This document shows, piece by piece, positions 24,739-35,528 of a DNA stretch of 36,364 nucleotides (positions are counted from its first letter, which is position 1; every line of letters begins with the position of its first letter). Location of the stretch: IMG/VR virus record IMGVR_UViG_3300020172_001782, positions 1 through 36,364 of that record. One strand, 5' to 3'. A model generated the notes under the pieces. The model was not told the origin of the DNA, made no database searches, and was given only the letters and a program-made list of their open reading frames with translations. The position numbers and the translations under genes are program-made. The stretch is from a virus.

Positions 24739-25386
24739 ATGGAAAACGCATCGCTTAGTAACGAGCAATTTGCTGCCAATATCAACGAAGGCTACGGCGG
24801 TTCCGTTAACTTTAAAACCAGAAAACCCGTAACTGGTAAAGGGTTTCTAACTTCTTTTGCAGGAGCCGAAAAGCCTACGGCTCTTCCAATTAAAGCCGAA
24901 GACATTCAAAATTATAGAAACGCTCATCATGAGTTAGCCAGTCAAAGTGATGCAACCGTTCATGGGGTTTGGAAAAACCCAGCAACTCCAGGGGTTGCAG
25001 ACCAAGATTTATCAGTTCAAGTTAGCACTCCTAAAGACGCACAAGCAATGGGAATTGCTGAAAAACAAAAGGCATCATACGCATTACCTAAAACACGTGT
25101 TTCTAGTCGTGGTCATAATGTAACTGGTAGTTTAGATGAAGAGGGCAAACCTACTGGCGGAGATGTTCTTTTACACACAGCAGACCTTGGAAAAAATGAT
25201 GTTGACCCACGCTACCGTCCAGGAGCATTAGATACCCCAGGTGCTGGAAGTTTTACTCGCAATCAATATAAGAACAAAGACTGGAATAAAAAGGCTGGAA
25301 CGTTAAACGGGAAGCCAGTCAATTACGAGAGCATTCTTAGAACTATCAACGAAAATAGAGTTGAACGTATGCGTGGTGAAGGCTAA
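24739..25386 (+). CDS. Hypothetical protein starting the small-protein cluster
   Basis: A 215-residue protein. ATG 24739 has no Shine-Dalgarno and lies 3 bases after the palindrome, so a leaderless transcript is possible. The sequence is polar and Gly/Asn/Lys-rich (EGYGGSVNFKTRKPVTGKGF), with short strand-like phrases and a C-terminal helix ending ENRVERMRGEG. No domain is recognised. It is TAATG-coupled to the next gene. Structural or DNA-associated virion protein is conceivable, but nothing in the sequence proves it. Confidence 0.55.
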   Translation: MENASLSNEQFAANINEGYGGSVNFKTRKPVTGKGFLTSFAGAEKPTALPIKAEDIQNYRNAHHELASQSDATVHGVWKNPATPGVADQDLSVQVSTPKDAQAMGIAEKQKASYALPKTRVSSRGHNVTGSLDEEGKPTGGDVLLHTADLGKNDVDPRYRPGALDTPGAGSFTRNQYKNKDWNKKAGTLNGKPVNYESILRTINENRVERMRGEG

Positions 25387-29268: not shown

Positions 29269-29832
29269 ATGGCGCAACCACCTTTATTAGGCTCGAAAGA
29301 CAAGTCTTATAACGACGGACCTCAGATGAGACTCCTTCACTGTATGGTGTGTAGTTCTATAGAAGAATTACCACCGTATCAAGGTCGTCCAGAAAACGAC
29401 CATTTACTAGCAATTGCTTGTGAAAAGCATAAGTTCCCTTCTGGTGAAGAACACAAGGGATTGCTATTTGTTGTACCTGTATTAGCGTGGGCTAAAAAAG
29501 AAGCACGTGAAGACATCATTCGCCAAATTAAAGGCGGAGGTTCAAAAGGTTTAGCCGAAATTGATTCTTCTTTTTACGATACCAAGAGTCAATTTGGTGA
29601 AGATGCCATGAACTGCTGGAAGAGCAGAAACAGACCTCAAGATAGTTGTGATGATTACGAGTCTTCTTCTAAAAGACTATTGCCAGATACAGCAAAAGAC
29701 AGAAAAGAACTAGGGTTAACTTCTTTAAAGGATGCCCCAGGACCAAAGAACTACCTTTGCCACTTTTGCCCAATTCATAGTAAAGTGGTTCAACGCAAAC
29801 GACAACTGTTAGGACTATATGATGACAAATAA
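29269..29832 (+). CDS. Conserved phage cysteine-rich protein
   Basis: A 187-residue protein behind ATAGGAG. The upstream gap contains TAAGAT, which fits a TAnnnT -10. The sequence starts with a C-x-x-C pair (RLLHCMVCSS), then a PPYQGRPENDHLLAIACEKH segment, a helix, a W-K-S-R-N-R-P-Q-D-S-C-D-D-Y phrase, and ends with Y-L-C-H-F-C-P-I-H-S and a basic helix. The Cys/His pairs suggest two zinc sites. I recall similar proteins in actinophage genomes, none with known function. Confidence 0.6.
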   Translation: MAQPPLLGSKDKSYNDGPQMRLLHCMVCSSIEELPPYQGRPENDHLLAIACEKHKFPSGEEHKGLLFVVPVLAWAKKEAREDIIRQIKGGGSKGLAEIDSSFYDTKSQFGEDAMNCWKSRNRPQDSCDDYESSSKRLLPDTAKDRKELGLTSLKDAPGPKNYLCHFCPIHSKVVQRKRQLLGLYDDK

Positions 29833-30196
29833 AAAAACCCCTGAAGACAAAAAGACCCCTCTAGAAGTTGAGTTTTACTACGTGGTGGCTGTTGATAAAG
29901 ACGGCACAATTCAAACTTTCAGAGACATTCCTGCTGAAGGTATCGAATCACAACGCCCTTTCAATACCCTTGATATTTACAAGGTTTCACAAGAGATTGT
30001 GTCAGACATTAAAGACCAACTTCTTACTGACCGTGTAATTTCAGGGCTGATGAATGTTCTACAAGCACAGCAACAGCCAGTAAGTGCACGTGTTGCAGAG
30101 GCTCTTAAGGAACGTGGTGTTGAGTTCAATGCTGGAGAGTCAGTAATGGAGTTTTCAGCAGACAACGTATTAGACGCTGAAGTTGTAAAGGACTAA
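29822..30196 (+). CDS. Hypothetical acidic protein
   Basis: A 124-residue protein from ATG 29822; ATG 29819 directly before it is also possible, but AGGA at 29811 gives better spacing to the second. After a charged start (KKTPEDKKTPLEVEF), a strand pair (YYVVAVDKDGTIQTF) is followed by a helical segment (VSQEIVSDIKDQLLTDRVISGLMNVL). It overlaps the upstream gene by 11 bases. Not recognised. Confidence 0.5.
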   Translation: MTNKKTPEDKKTPLEVEFYYVVAVDKDGTIQTFRDIPAEGIESQRPFNTLDIYKVSQEIVSDIKDQLLTDRVISGLMNVLQAQQQPVSARVAEALKERGVEFNAGESVMEFSADNVLDAEVVKD

Positions 30197-30413: not shown

Positions 30414-31370
30414 GTGTACATGCACAATCGCAACGACGCTTTAAATCGGGTGGTTGGTCCAGTGAACTTGGCTGGGTCAGCCACTTCGTATTTTTCCAAG
30501 CCTGAATCAAAACTTGACCCTGGACTTTTTGTAGGGGAAAAGATAAAGCCATGGGTTCGTAACTCTTTGATACGAATGCTTTACGGCTTCTTGTCTACTA
30601 AGTATCACACCCCTTACTCATGGACAACGGTGTGGATTGCTGGCTCAGGCGTGTCTTACCAATGGAGTGCTCAACGAAGCCCTGCAGACCTAGATGTTTT
30701 AATCGGTGTTAACTACGAAGTCTTTCGTAAAGACCACCCAGACTACATGGGCTTATCTGACACAGAGATTAGCAAAATGCTAAACGATGATTTTCGCACA
30801 GGGCTAATGCCCAGCACTAAAAACTGGGAAGGATACGAAGTTACCTTCTACGTAAACCCTGGTGCTACAGACATTAGAGTTATCAAGCCTTACGCTGCTT
30901 ACGACTTAACACACGATGACTGGACTGTTCACCCTGACCCACAGGCTCAAGCAACCCTAACTCCTCAATGGGAGCAAGCAGCAAAGGTTGACAACGAAAA
31001 AGCAAAAGACATTGTTAGCAGGTACAGCACACTGACTGCTAGTTTACAAGCAGCAAAAAACGATGCTCAAAGACGTAACGCTGAGTATCTTCTTTTGAAC
31101 TTGTTAGAGCAAGCAAGTGCTTTATATGAAGACATACATGGAAGTCGAAAACTAGCCTTCTCTGAATCAGGGCAAGGGTATGGAGATTTCTATAACTATC
31201 GTTGGCAAGCAGGTAAGCGATTGGGCACTGTTGGAGTGCTATCTAGGTTAAAAGAATTCCACGATGATTATAAGACTGCTGAAGAAGTTACAACCTACGG
31301 TGTTGAATTGCCTGACATTCGTACACTTATTCGTAGAGCAGCGATGTATAGGGCAAACAGAAACGAGTAA
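30414..31370 (+). CDS. Nucleotidyltransferase-fold protein
   Basis: An about 318-residue protein from GTG 30414 (ATG 30420 is an alternative). Residues about 74-97 read W-I-A-G-S-G, a gap, then R-S-P-A-D-L-D-V-L-I: the G-S-x(8-13)-D-x-D signature of the DNA polymerase beta-like nucleotidyltransferase superfamily (D92, D94). A third acidic residue could be in TDIRVIKPY near residue 155, but I cannot place it with certainty. The C-terminal 130 residues are helical. Related enzymes add nucleotides to RNA, proteins or small molecules. The next two genes, HAD-like and TGT-like, may share its pathway. Confidence 0.65.
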   Translation: MYMHNRNDALNRVVGPVNLAGSATSYFSKPESKLDPGLFVGEKIKPWVRNSLIRMLYGFLSTKYHTPYSWTTVWIAGSGVSYQWSAQRSPADLDVLIGVNYEVFRKDHPDYMGLSDTEISKMLNDDFRTGLMPSTKNWEGYEVTFYVNPGATDIRVIKPYAAYDLTHDDWTVHPDPQAQATLTPQWEQAAKVDNEKAKDIVSRYSTLTASLQAAKNDAQRRNAEYLLLNLLEQASALYEDIHGSRKLAFSESGQGYGDFYNYRWQAGKRLGTVGVLSRLKEFHDDYKTAEEVTTYGVELPDIRTLIRRAAMYRANRNE

Positions 31371-31373
31371 AAC

Positions 31374-31847
31374 TTGAACGTACTTGTAGCACTAGAAGGC
31401 ATACTTAGTTCACACGATAAAAAACCTAATCGAACTGGGGTCATGCTTTACTACTATTTAATACCCCACAGCAGAGTGGCAATTTATACAACGTGGAGTA
31501 AAAGAGATGCCGAAAACTGGTTGGCAGTAAATGGCATTATTGATTACGCCGAGTTAATTGATTCTTCTTCAGGGTTACTTGGAGATGACTTATCTCAAAG
31601 GCAAATTACCGTTGCACGGTCAAGACAGACTATTGACCTTCTTTTTACCGCTAACCCAGAACTTGCTGCTTGGGCTTTTGAAAAAGGCATACCTTCTTTA
31701 GTCTTTGCCCACCCAGATTCCATAGCAATTCCACACAGACCTGGCATGAAAGCCTGGAGCACAATTGAGGAATCTATAACCAAAAGAAATATCCAACGTT
31801 CTTTAGACGCTCAAAAAGAACAAGCCGAAGGCTTCTTGGTTGATTAA
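31374..31847 (+). CDS. HAD-like protein lacking the nucleophile
   Basis: A 157-residue protein from TTG 31374. The order of strands matches HAD phosphatases: a first strand V-L-V-A-L-E-G-I-L where D-x-D-G-T would be expected (A6 and E8 replace the two aspartates), a second strand V-A-I-Y-T-T-W-S (motif II Thr), and A-W-A-F-E-K-G-I-P-S-L-V-F near residue 100. The first-strand aspartate, the usual phosphorylated nucleophile, is missing. It may be a non-catalytic member or not a HAD at all. It is TAATG-coupled to the TGT-like gene. Confidence 0.45.
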   Translation: MNVLVALEGILSSHDKKPNRTGVMLYYYLIPHSRVAIYTTWSKRDAENWLAVNGIIDYAELIDSSSGLLGDDLSQRQITVARSRQTIDLLFTANPELAAWAFEKGIPSLVFAHPDSIAIPHRPGMKAWSTIEESITKRNIQRSLDAQKEQAEGFLVD

Positions 31848-33364
31848 TGAGGATTGTTTACGGGGGCACTGAAGTTGGCAGTAATCGAACACTGCTAGAA
31901 GCCATGGGTGTTACCCGTATGGCTTTGTCTTTTTACGCCTTAAAGAAGCGAGGGTTACCTAAAACGAAGTTATGGCTTGCTTCCGAACACTTCCTCCCAG
32001 ATACTCAGTTAATTCTAGACTCTGGCATTGCCCAGGCTGAACGAGATGGGCTGTCTAAAGAAGAACTAGCCTCTTTAGCCTCCGAATACCAAGAGTTTGT
32101 GGCTAACAACCTGGAGTTCATCTGGGCATTTATAGAGCCAGATTCTAAAGTTTTGGGGCTGGACTGGGTTCTTCAAGAGAGAGCCTCCTACGAGCACGAC
32201 CCTAAACAATGGGTGGTATGGCACGCTGAATACGGCGTACAGAGCCTTAGAGACTGGGCGAAGACCCACTCTAATATCGCCATACCCTATGAGACCATTG
32301 AGTCTGTAACCAGCCTTGCAGGGCTTACAAGAGCACTGGTATCCCAGCATGAGGTAGCCTTTCATGGCTTGGGCTGTGCCAAGCCCGACAACCTACGGCA
32401 GATACCCTTTACTACGGTTACAACCCTATCTTGGCTCTCCCCCATGCGAAGAGGAGAAACCATAATTTGGGACGGGGTACAGATTGTTCGCTACCCCAAG
32501 AAGATGTTGGAGCAAGCCCGCAGACGTTACTCGTCAGTAATCTCTAAAGAAGGTTTGGACTTTGACAAGTTCTTAAACAACGATGGCGTAGAGTCTGCCA
32601 AGGTTGCAGTATGGTCATACAAGAAATTGGAGCAGTCTATGGATAAGAAACGCCCCGACCTTCACATTATTGAAGGGGGTAAAGAACCCTTAGTATCTGA
32701 TAACAGCGATACACCACTACTATCGGGAATGATGGATTTAGGGGGGGTGGGTTCTGATAACAGCGACCTAGACACGTGGAAAAAATCCGAGGTTGAAGAG
32801 GCTAAAAAGGTCATAGAAAGAGACCCTCAAGAGATTCAAAACCTACCTGTCTTTGGCTACAAGATGAAGACCATTGTAGACACCGATGACGAGGGAAACG
32901 ACGTTCTTAAAGACGTTCCGTTAGTCCAAATTACAGGAACTTCCTTACGCCAGTGTGACACTTGTTTTGTCGCTTCTAACTGCCCAGCCTTCAAACCACA
33001 GAACTCCTGTGCCTTCAATCTACCTGTCGAGGTAAAGACTAAAGAACAATTAAAAGCCTTATTAAATGCAGTAATTGAGATGCAGGGAGCAAGAGTTGCC
33101 TTCTCAAGGTTTGCAGAAGAACTCAATGGAGGCTACCCTGACCCCAATCTTTCCCAAGAAATTGACCGCCTTTTCAAACTTGTAAAAGGCATGAAAGAGT
33201 TGGAAGAGAACCGAGAATTCATTAGGATTACAGCCGAACGCCAGTCGTCAGGAGGAGTGCTTTCAGCCATATTTGGTGATAGAGCACAGGTGCTAAAAAA
33301 CCTCCCAAACGGTGGTTTAGACGAGGCAGAAACCACGAAAATCATTCAACAAACCCTAGAGTAA
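31847..33364 (+). CDS. TGT/DpdA-like TIM-barrel protein with Cys4 C-terminal domain
   Basis: A 505-residue protein. Residues 1-215 fit the tRNA-guanine transglycosylase/DpdA pattern: Y-G-G-T-E-V near the start, I-L-D-S-G (D58, like the D-S-G-G of TGT), F-H-G-L-G (172-176), and T-L-S-W-L-S-P-M-R-R-G (193-203). The residue at the position of the usual nucleophilic Asp (before S-x-x-W) is Thr192. Residues 280-310 are a Ser/Gly linker with a repeated SDNSD, and 370-388 hold C-x2-C-x5-C-x8-C, probably zinc or Fe-S. DpdA enzymes insert 7-deazaguanine into DNA. No preQ0 synthesis genes lie in the window. Confidence 0.5.
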   Translation: MRIVYGGTEVGSNRTLLEAMGVTRMALSFYALKKRGLPKTKLWLASEHFLPDTQLILDSGIAQAERDGLSKEELASLASEYQEFVANNLEFIWAFIEPDSKVLGLDWVLQERASYEHDPKQWVVWHAEYGVQSLRDWAKTHSNIAIPYETIESVTSLAGLTRALVSQHEVAFHGLGCAKPDNLRQIPFTTVTTLSWLSPMRRGETIIWDGVQIVRYPKKMLEQARRRYSSVISKEGLDFDKFLNNDGVESAKVAVWSYKKLEQSMDKKRPDLHIIEGGKEPLVSDNSDTPLLSGMMDLGGVGSDNSDLDTWKKSEVEEAKKVIERDPQEIQNLPVFGYKMKTIVDTDDEGNDVLKDVPLVQITGTSLRQCDTCFVASNCPAFKPQNSCAFNLPVEVKTKEQLKALLNAVIEMQGARVAFSRFAEELNGGYPDPNLSQEIDRLFKLVKGMKELEENREFIRITAERQSSGGVLSAIFGDRAQVLKNLPNGGLDEAETTKIIQQTLE

Positions 33365-33491: not shown

Positions 33492-35528
33492 ATGTCCCTA
33501 TTTTCTTTTCGTTTGACTGAAGATTACGTTGCAGGATTCCGTTCAAAGAAGCCTCCGTTTGGATACCAAGATGCTGCAGGAAATTCTGTAGGCGAGATAA
33601 CCTTCTTAAGAACTTATAGCCGTTTGAAAGAAGATGGAACTAAGGAGACTTGGGCAGATGTGTGTGAGCGTGTCATCAACGGCATGTACTCTCTACAGAA
33701 AGACCACGCTAAATCTCAGCGTCTACCTTGGAATGACTCCAAGGCTCAGGCTTCGGCTAAAGAAGCCTACGAACGTCTTTTTGAATTAAAGTGGACACCA
33801 CCTGGTCGAGGTCTGTGGGTAATGGGAACTCCGCTAGTAAACCAGTACCGAAACTCGGCAGCATTACAGAACTGTGCCTTTGTTTCCACGCTTGAGATGA
33901 CCAAGTTAAACCCTGCCAAACCATTTGCCTTCCTCATGGAGGCTTCCATGCTGGGAGTGGGAGTGGGCTTTGATGACAAGGGTGCTGATAAAGAATTTAC
34001 GATTTATGTCCCAACTTCTGCAGAGCCAGAGGTTACCCAGATTGCGGACACTAGAGAAGGCTGGGTTGAGTCTGTATCTTCTTTAATCAACGCCTACCTA
34101 AAACCTGAACAACCTATGCCACGATTTGACTACTCATTGATACGTCCTGCAGGTTCGCCTATAAAAATATTTGGCGGAACAGCAGCAGGGTCTGACCCTC
34201 TAAAGAAGTTACACGACTACATACATAAGTTGTTTGAGGGACGTGGCGGAGAAAAACTGACTCGCAGAGATATAGCCGATATTGGAAACCTCATTGGGGT
34301 TTGTGTTGTTTCAGGCAACGTTCGCCGTTCTGCTGAACTTCTTATTGGGCGTATTGATGATGAAGACTTCCTAAACCTAAAGAATGCTTCTGTATATCCT
34401 GAAAGAAATTCTTACGACCCTAAGAATCCTGGGTGGGCTTGGATGTCGAATAACTCTGTAGAGGCAACCGTTGGCTCTGACTACTCCAAGATTATTGACG
34501 GCATTGTTCTTAATGGAGAGCCAGGAATTGTTTGGCTTGATGTCTCTAAGAAGTACGGCAGACTCTCTGACCCTGCTAACAACAAAGACCACCGTATCGC
34601 TGGTTACAACCCTTGTGCAGAACAAAGCCTTGAGTCTTTCGAATGCTGTACTTTGGTTGAGACCTACCTAAACCGTCACGAGTCTAAAGAAGACTTCTTA
34701 AGAACATTAAAGTTTGCTTACCTCTATGCCAAGACTGTAACCCTATTGCCTACGCATTGGGAAGAGACAAATGCAATCATGCAACGCAATCGCCGTATCG
34801 GAACTTCCGTGTCGGGAATTGCAAATTTTGCAGATAACAAAGGCTTACCTGTTTTGCGTGATTGGCTTAACGAAGGCTACAAGGTTATAAAGGCTTACGA
34901 TGAGACCTATTCCGAATGGCTTGGCATTCGCCAGTCTATAAAGATGACAACTGTTAAGCCTTCAGGAACAGTTTCAATTCTTGCGGGAGCAAGTCCAGGG
35001 GTTCATTGGGCTTCAGGTGGTAAGTTCTTTAACAGAGCAATTCGTTTTGGAAACACAGACCCAATGTTAGTTCTATTTAAAATGGCTAACTATCGAGTTG
35101 AACCTGCTTCTGAATCACCTACAACAACTTCTGTTGTCTTCTTCCCAATTGCTACAGACGCAAAGCGTGCTGAAAAAGAAGTTTCAATTTACGAAAAAAT
35201 GGACTTGGCTGCAACTGCTCAGTTCTACTGGAGTGATAACTCTGTATCAGTAACTGTAACCTTCGACCCTGAAACAGAGGGTAAGCATGTGGAGACTGCG
35301 TTAAATATGTTTGACGGAAGACTAAAGACTGTCTCTTTCTTGCCTATGGGTAATGCGGTGTATCCACAAATGCCTTACACACAGATTACAGAAGCAGAGT
35401 ATGAAGATGCTCGAATGAAACTAATGCCTATAGATTTAACAGGAATCTATGATGGTTATGCTTTCGACGCAATTGGCGAGGCTTATTGCACTACAGACGC
35501 TTGTGAAATTAAGTTCTTAAAGAACTAA
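33492..35528 (+). CDS. nrdJ: Class II (adenosylcobalamin-dependent) ribonucleotide reductase
   Basis: A 678-residue RNR; ATG 33492 lies seven bases after GAAAGG. It resembles the monomeric Lactobacillus leichmannii type: C128 in L-Q-N-C-A-F, then N-P-C-A-E with C375 and E377, and C386 eleven residues after C375, matching the catalytic C119/C408/E410/C419 set. The C-terminal pair C666-x4-C671 matches C731/C736, which shuttle electrons. KPSGTVS is at 489-495. It makes dNTP precursors from ribonucleotides with B12, needing no oxygen. No cobalamin riboswitch is visible upstream. Its stop overlaps the end of a convergent gene. Confidence 0.9.
   Translation: MSLFSFRLTEDYVAGFRSKKPPFGYQDAAGNSVGEITFLRTYSRLKEDGTKETWADVCERVINGMYSLQKDHAKSQRLPWNDSKAQASAKEAYERLFELKWTPPGRGLWVMGTPLVNQYRNSAALQNCAFVSTLEMTKLNPAKPFAFLMEASMLGVGVGFDDKGADKEFTIYVPTSAEPEVTQIADTREGWVESVSSLINAYLKPEQPMPRFDYSLIRPAGSPIKIFGGTAAGSDPLKKLHDYIHKLFEGRGGEKLTRRDIADIGNLIGVCVVSGNVRRSAELLIGRIDDEDFLNLKNASVYPERNSYDPKNPGWAWMSNNSVEATVGSDYSKIIDGIVLNGEPGIVWLDVSKKYGRLSDPANNKDHRIAGYNPCAEQSLESFECCTLVETYLNRHESKEDFLRTLKFAYLYAKTVTLLPTHWEETNAIMQRNRRIGTSVSGIANFADNKGLPVLRDWLNEGYKVIKAYDETYSEWLGIRQSIKMTTVKPSGTVSILAGASPGVHWASGGKFFNRAIRFGNTDPMLVLFKMANYRVEPASESPTTTSVVFFPIATDAKRAEKEVSIYEKMDLAATAQFYWSDNSVSVTVTFDPETEGKHVETALNMFDGRLKTVSFLPMGNAVYPQMPYTQITEAEYEDARMKLMPIDLTGIYDGYAFDAIGEAYCTTDACEIKFLKN

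Follow-up and report, generated by a model that had tools for sequence, protein, structure and literature searches.

The three adjacent genes at positions 30,414 to 33,364 of IMGVR_UViG_3300020172_001782, an IMG/VR fragment of 36,364 bases whose full length is hereafter called the window, raise the question of whether a phage that carries a relative of DpdA, the DNA 7-deazaguanine transglycosylase, also modifies its DNA. The presence of a DpdA gene is used to predict deazaguanine-modified phage DNA. An earlier note on this locus, made from the sequence alone, had recognized a nucleotidyltransferase (NTase) with G-S...D-x-D motifs, a HAD-like protein lacking its nucleophile and a TGT-like barrel fused to a Cys4 domain, and had proposed a nucleotide or nucleic-acid modification pathway. 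The description of the genes was confirmed: three open reading frames (ORFs) abut on the + strand (30414..33364) and end before a class II ribonucleotide reductase (RNR) starting at 33492. What the note had missed is that the TGT-like protein has itself lost its nucleophile. We report here that the three genes form a core block of BRock-like actinophages, and that the third protein is, as judged by profile comparison, a descendant of DpdA.

The relationship of the third protein to DpdA was analyzed using a reference profile of nine phage DpdAs, most of which adjoin preQ0 genes. The profile of the window family was aligned to it by hhalign over 184 columns with an E-value of 9e-10. In the control comparisons, eight column shuffles gave 0.08-0.85, the reversed profile 0.4, and the profiles of the NTase and the HAD-like protein 0.2-0.6. 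The closest reference was the barrel of Bacteroides phage BS162P1, whose DpdA was matched in blastp by the window protein (E 9e-9) and by the copy of phage BRock (E 2e-11). PHROGs assigned the protein to phrog_887, queuine tRNA-ribosyltransferase (E 9e-54); this match is not independent, since phrog_887 was apparently built on the BRock sequences themselves. No significant Pfam family and no match to the PDB sequence profiles was obtained for any of the three window proteins. In the predicted structure of the DpdA-like protein, only residues 1-265 are modelled with confidence, and Foldseek matched this barrel to generic TIM barrels of the PDB, with no TGT among the top 50 matches, so that the DpdA homology rests on the profile comparison.

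Bacterial TGT uses Asp280 as its nucleophile, with assistance from Asp102 (PMC6165067). At the nucleophile column (TGT Asp280, D215 in the DpdA of phage 9g), the 93 aligned sequences of the window family have Ser (73), Thr (19) or Ala (1), and five prophage copies described below have T or A. The Asp is present in all ten reference DpdAs, which read S-x-D-S at the matching place. The same division was observed in a joint alignment of the window, freshwater, Streptomyces-phage and prophage copies with these references, where every reference has D and every family member T, S or A. At the acid/base column (9g D72, TGT Asp102), Asp is found in 25 of the 93 sequences, the window included, and Glu in 68. 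The pocket residues E97, D99, K179-P180 and S195-W196 are near invariant. Across the freshwater set, mean identity to the window copy is 62% for the barrel and 79% for the C-terminal module, which argues that the genes are not decaying. Because the nucleophilic Asp is missing, we do not call the protein a DpdA transglycosylase, although it descends from DpdA; its alignment suggests a conserved, non-catalytic DpdA that probably cannot use the known transglycosylase mechanism. Two additional features were considered and discarded. Loss of the Gly-rich loop was dropped as a further sign of inactivity, as the BS162P1 DpdA, which keeps the nucleophile, is likewise without the loop. D181, in the KPD motif, was rejected as a substitute catalytic residue, as it is not specific to the proteins with the loss: BS162P1 has Asp in the same column, and some prophages have Glu.

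The C-terminal module of the DpdA-like protein contains four cysteines (C370, C373, C379 and C388), which are invariant in the 93 sequences. Four Streptomyces prophage copies have the helices of the module without the cysteines, which are thus not essential. In phage BS162P1 and in the gut phage record MT835482, the module is encoded by a separate gene beside DpdA, in the order QueC-like gene, DpdA, Cys4 protein, with a QueE-like radical-SAM gene further on. Pfam confirmed the QueC assignments (E 5e-14 and 7e-15) as well as radical SAM. The module of the window matched that of the gut phages with an E-value of 4e-16 (shuffles, 0.11-0.57). Since module and barrel sit as separate genes in the QueC/QueE operon of these phages, the window protein is a fusion of two deazaguanine-operon parts. 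Both gut phage DpdAs keep the nucleophile, within SVDSVTW in one and within SSDSS, at an intein junction, in the other. The latter gene (MT835482.1, 2539-4737) is interrupted by an intein, containing a LAGLIDADG domain, that is located exactly at the catalytic SxDSS site. No further gut-type Cys4 proteins were found in a scan of viral contigs.

The order NTase, HAD-like, DpdA-like recurs in Streptomyces phages (six GenBank records: BRock twice, GiJojo, pSt2308, LuckySocke and Alone3), whose proteins are 26-40% identical to those of the window, and in numerous IMG/VR contigs from freshwater relatives. The relative loci, 182 in number and overlapping in part, provided 83 distinct NTase, 72 HAD-like and 90 DpdA-like protein sequences. 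The succession NTase, HAD-like, DpdA-like, RNR is seen in 156 of the 182, the remainder being cut by contig ends or lying at the scan edge; the co-occurrence on which the earlier proposal depended is therefore confirmed. When all GiJojo ORFs were searched, 37 sense ORFs were common to GiJojo and two freshwater contigs of ~100 kb, and this shared set contains the three genes together with those for TerL, portal, capsid, sheath, helicases, polymerase and RecA. For this reason the block is assigned to the core of BRock-like actinophages and is not accessory. The RNR gene is merely a neighbour outside the block, because its adjacency is confined to the freshwater group and the annotated RNR of GiJojo lies ~19 kb from the DpdA-like gene.

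A genome scan also identified the family in five actinobacterial assemblies, one of Terracoccus and four of Streptomyces. All five carry homologues of portal, capsid and TerL, with TerL or others interrupted in some, and the copies are therefore considered to be prophages or prophage remnants. In the four Streptomyces prophages the block is complete, with NTase, HAD-like and DpdA-like genes in this order. The Terracoccus prophage encodes the HAD-like and DpdA-like proteins and a conserved protein of 187 amino acids that is also found upstream of the block in the window. The NTase was not found anywhere in the Terracoccus genome, and is thus separable from the other two.

The NTase motifs G-S and D-x-D and the residue E140 are identical in all 86 sequences analyzed, and its AlphaFold2 model (mean pLDDT 87) has the expected order of helix, strand (GS), strand (DxD), helix and strand (E140). 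Comparison of the model with the PDB gave weak matches amid noise, with CdnE (0.09) and a CCA-adding enzyme (0.12) within the first four. In a viral library, phage proteins were matched at 1e-10 to 1e-6, one of them named nucleotidyl transferase domain protein (E 2e-9) and another amidoligase. The best NTase homologue matched DUF6932 with an E-value of 0.00086, short of the Pfam cut-off. Motifs and model make it plausible that the NTase is an active enzyme.

Of the three proteins, the HAD-like one varies most (mean identity, 49%). The position of its motif-I nucleophile, A6 in the window, is occupied by S, A, N, V or T in 75 sequences and never by D, and the second acidic position is D or E in 71 of the 75 and N in four. 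Motif I reads [SA]-L-[DE]-G. In all copies the gene is located directly upstream of the DpdA-like gene or separated from it by one extra gene. The protein had no Pfam, PHROGs or PDB sequence match, and we use the term HAD-like on the basis of the motif layout and of the 'hydrolase' and 'phosphatase' annotations of its phage homologues.

According to the earlier note, no preQ0 genes are present in the window and the base would come from the host or elsewhere. A search of 17 related records, among them the complete genomes of BRock and GiJojo, gave matches for its positive controls but none for QueC, QueD, FolE or the Vut_1 family of preQ0 transporters; QueE was not searched separately. Among the five prophage hosts, S. 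rimosus has strong QueC matches, Terracoccus and S. xanthochromogenes have none (the assemblies are drafts, in which absence is no proof), and matches in the rest are weak and partial. A catalytic DpdA partner, sought solely through sequence matches to this DpdA-like family, was not seen either.

The explanation that we favor, with a probability of roughly 0.55, is that the third protein of this core block is a DpdA fused to its operon partner that is no longer a transglycosylase, with DNA recognition as its likeliest role, and that the HAD-like protein is a second non-catalytic partner. Under this explanation, a DNA 7-deazaguanine transglycosylase would have been joined to its operon partner, and would have retained the barrel and much of a putative DNA-holding surface while losing the nucleophile for guanine displacement. 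It would most likely recognize DNA in the manner of the non-catalytic TGT subunit QTRT2, while its C-terminal module would contact other proteins of the phage. The NTase, which alone of the three has an intact active site, would pass a nucleotide to some target. A role in packaging is proposed as a sub-hypothesis, because the module resembles the C-terminal part of TerL-adjacent 'terminase small subunit' proteins of Gordonia and Tsukamurella phages. By analogy, DNA reading would be the simplest account of a DpdA descendant that is under strong constraint, fused to a partner and core. A broader claim, that the protein is an essential non-catalytic DNA reader of the whole phage family, possibly acting in packaging, and that queuine tRNA-ribosyltransferase or DpdA labels in that family do not mark modified DNA, is put forward tentatively and with clearly less confidence. 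Homology, fusion, nucleophile loss, conservation, core status and the absence of preQ0 genes are observations; loss of activity, DNA binding, the partner roles and packaging are inferred. Several points weigh against the explanation that we favor. The loss of one residue does not prove that all catalysis is lost, and the near-invariant pocket may signal new chemistry rather than none. The link to packaging is a weak match, the gut phage module stands with DpdA and not with TerL, and in BRock-type phages TerL is located far from the DpdA-like gene.

Among the alternatives, the one that survives best, though it is improbable, is that the DpdA-like protein is itself the small subunit of the terminase or a protein that recognizes the packaging site, with a barrel that reads phage DNA and a module that docks to the motor. 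The module is akin to the C-terminal part of proteins whose genes immediately precede TerL in Gordonia, Tsukamurella and Rhodococcus phages, a family present in more than 100 actinophage records; the block is core alongside TerL, portal and capsid; and a small subunit was neither annotated nor found by PHROGs among the genes tested beside the GiJojo TerL. However, the match to the proteins of Tsukamurella phage TIN2 and Gordonia phage Woes is weak (E 1.5e-4 from the window module and 2e-6 from the gut version; shuffles, 0.045-0.49), the N-terminal half of these proteins bears no relation to the DpdA-like protein, and the name 'terminase small subunit' is itself an annotation.

Slightly less probable is a function in counter-defence or host takeover, in which the NTase would nucleotidylate a host protein or RNA, the other two proteins would serve as adaptors and the block would be a landing place for effectors. 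The NTase-HAD gap of some relatives holds an Arr-type ADP-ribosyltransferase or a GNAT protein, pol-beta NTases, ADP-ribosyltransferases and GNATs are listed as effectors in phage and plasmid conflicts (PMC5512222), and the names of the viral proteins matched by the NTase model are in line with this function. On the other hand, the block is core and as conserved as replication genes, which is unusual for counter-defence, and the extra genes may just use a permissive insertion site.

We consider a new DNA or tRNA modification, in which the barrel would flip a base out without displacing it and the NTase would add a nucleotide to that base, to be far less likely. An intact NTase adjoins a DpdA-derived putative binder with a strongly conserved pocket, and DpdA is DNA-directed (PMC6884629); but the Terracoccus prophage has the barrel and the HAD-like protein without an NTase, and no precedent was found in the literature searched. 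Least likely of all is active 7-deazaguanine modification, with the barrel inserting a host-made preQ0 base and its neighbours tailoring the product, for although the DpdA ancestry, the occurrence of the module in QueC/QueE operons, the QueC matches of S. rimosus, the existence of phages that have DpdA alone and the trace of dADG in Salmonella phage 7-11 (PMC6884629) speak for it, the nucleophile is missing in all 93 sequences and the five prophages, the acid/base Asp is mostly replaced by Glu, synthesis and transporter genes were not found in the phage records nor QueC in two hosts, and Mycobacterium phage Orion, which has DpdA only, is unmodified (PMC6884629). The earlier proposal is thus supported as to the linkage of the three genes, the kinship of the third protein and the missing nucleophile of the HAD-like protein, and an operating deazaguanine pathway is unlikely.

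The positions of the genes and residues are presented in the table. The NTase ORF extends to a GTG at 30414 (30414..31370, 318 aa), and its homologues point to the ATG at 30420 as the probable start.

Table. Positions of the block, its functional residues and its flanking genes in the window
Feature	Position	Strand	Remarks
NTase-like (pol-beta type)	30420..31370	+	ATG 30420 preferred, matching homologue starts
NTase motifs	G75-S76 30642-30647; D90-x-D92 30687-30695; E140 30837-30839	+	numbering from ATG 30420
HAD-like without motif-I nucleophile	31374..31847	+	157 aa; A6 31389-31391, E8 31395-31397
DpdA-like, barrel fused to Cys4/helical module	31847..33364	+	505 aa
DpdA/TGT-like barrel, residues 1-265	31847..32641	+	
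Barrel D58	32018-32020	+	aligns with acid/base Asp
Barrel D99	32141-32143	+	aligns with 9g D114
Barrel T192	32420-32422	+	aligns with nucleophile Asp, 9g D215
Cys4/helical module, residues 334-505	32846..33361	+	C370, C373, C379, C388 inside 32954-33010
Conserved upstream protein	29269..29832	+	187 aa; homologue of GiJojo gene 175; syntenic with block in phages and prophages
Class II RNR	33492..35528	+	downstream neighbour, freshwater group only

Elsewhere, the window contains a replication module with a DnaB-type helicase, a primase, a second helicase, a DNA polymerase, a RecA/UvsX-like recombinase, a Cas4-type exonuclease, a dNMP kinase and a RuvC-like resolvase. A protein of ~200 aa at 24739-25386, with no Pfam match, begins with an N-terminal tag (MENASLSNEQFA...) that is also found on several small proteins nearby in relatives; its homologues are located at L134:1744-2361, L156:1474-2058 and L088:939-1532. 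The NTase was examined as a bearer of this tag and rejected, the likeness being too short. Similar acidic C-terminal tails (e.g. VLDAEVVKD, IVDAEFIELEG, NIVDADVIED and VLDAEVADE) were observed in several proteins of a set comprising the window protein at 29819-30196, the BRock DpdA-like protein, the prophage copies and TIN2, and are possibly a shared docking peptide.

An extra gene lies between the NTase and HAD-like genes in ~25 loci (L028, L049, L074, L083, L088, L100, L118, L149, L197 and others). These genes fall into 14 families that are not related to one another, among them an Arr-type ADP-ribosyltransferase (Pfam Arr-ms, E 3e-8), a GNAT protein and proteins that look like HNH or ParB. 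In six of these families the N-terminus carries a short tag of similar form, about L-S-x-x-Q-F (background 0.7% per window, P ~4e-10, for a motif chosen post hoc), which is the tag found on the window protein at 24739-25386. From these sequences the gap resembles a cargo slot whose products share an N-terminal signal. A protein of 230-247 aa (start MKKIRFTAD... or similar) occupies varying positions in the block, namely the gap between the DpdA-like and RNR genes in L023, L035 and L177 and that between the NTase and HAD-like genes in L183.

The modification status of phages that have only DpdA was called difficult to predict in a 2019 survey (PMC6884629). The BRock-like family carries a DpdA-type gene, annotated as such in GenBank, yet it probably leaves its DNA unmodified, so that a likely misannotation is corrected here. 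Inspection of the nucleophile position is a one-residue test that can be applied to other DpdA-only phages, and the operons of the gut phages suggest that working DpdA enzymes have a Cys4 partner that is as yet unnamed. If the protein does read DNA at packaging, it would represent an unusual route from an enzyme to a part of the packaging machinery. The earlier note considered the arrangement undescribed, and no description of it, and no report of the nucleophile loss or of the fusion, was found in the literature searched, although the genes themselves are in GenBank in BRock and its relatives, with the third annotated as DpdA-like or queuine tRNA-ribosyltransferase.

Among known systems, the window protein is close to those of BS162P1 and MT835482, which have the same barrel family and the same Cys4/helical module; there the two are separate genes of a QueC/QueE operon and the Asp is kept, whereas in the window they are fused, the Asp is lost and no Que genes were found. 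The barrel is homologous to the DpdAs of phages 9g, CAjan and Rosebush (PMC6884629), from which the window protein keeps the DSG motif, D99 and mostly H126/H173; it differs in the lost nucleophile, in the extra C-terminal module and in having an NTase and a HAD-like protein as neighbours instead of ParB and preQ0 genes. The TerL-adjacent 'terminase small subunit' proteins of TIN2 and Woes have a similar Cys-rich C-terminal module, with an unrelated N-terminal half and a gene beside TerL. BRock, GiJojo, pSt2308, LuckySocke and Alone3 have the same block in the same order as the window, at 30-39% protein identity, but with a disordered-looking gene between the HAD-like and DpdA-like genes, an endolysin gene just upstream and the RNR elsewhere. 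Finally, eukaryotic QTRT2 (PMC6165067), to which we liken the window protein, has the TGT fold, altered catalytic aspartates and a structural role, but it partners a catalytic QTRT1 and acts on tRNA.

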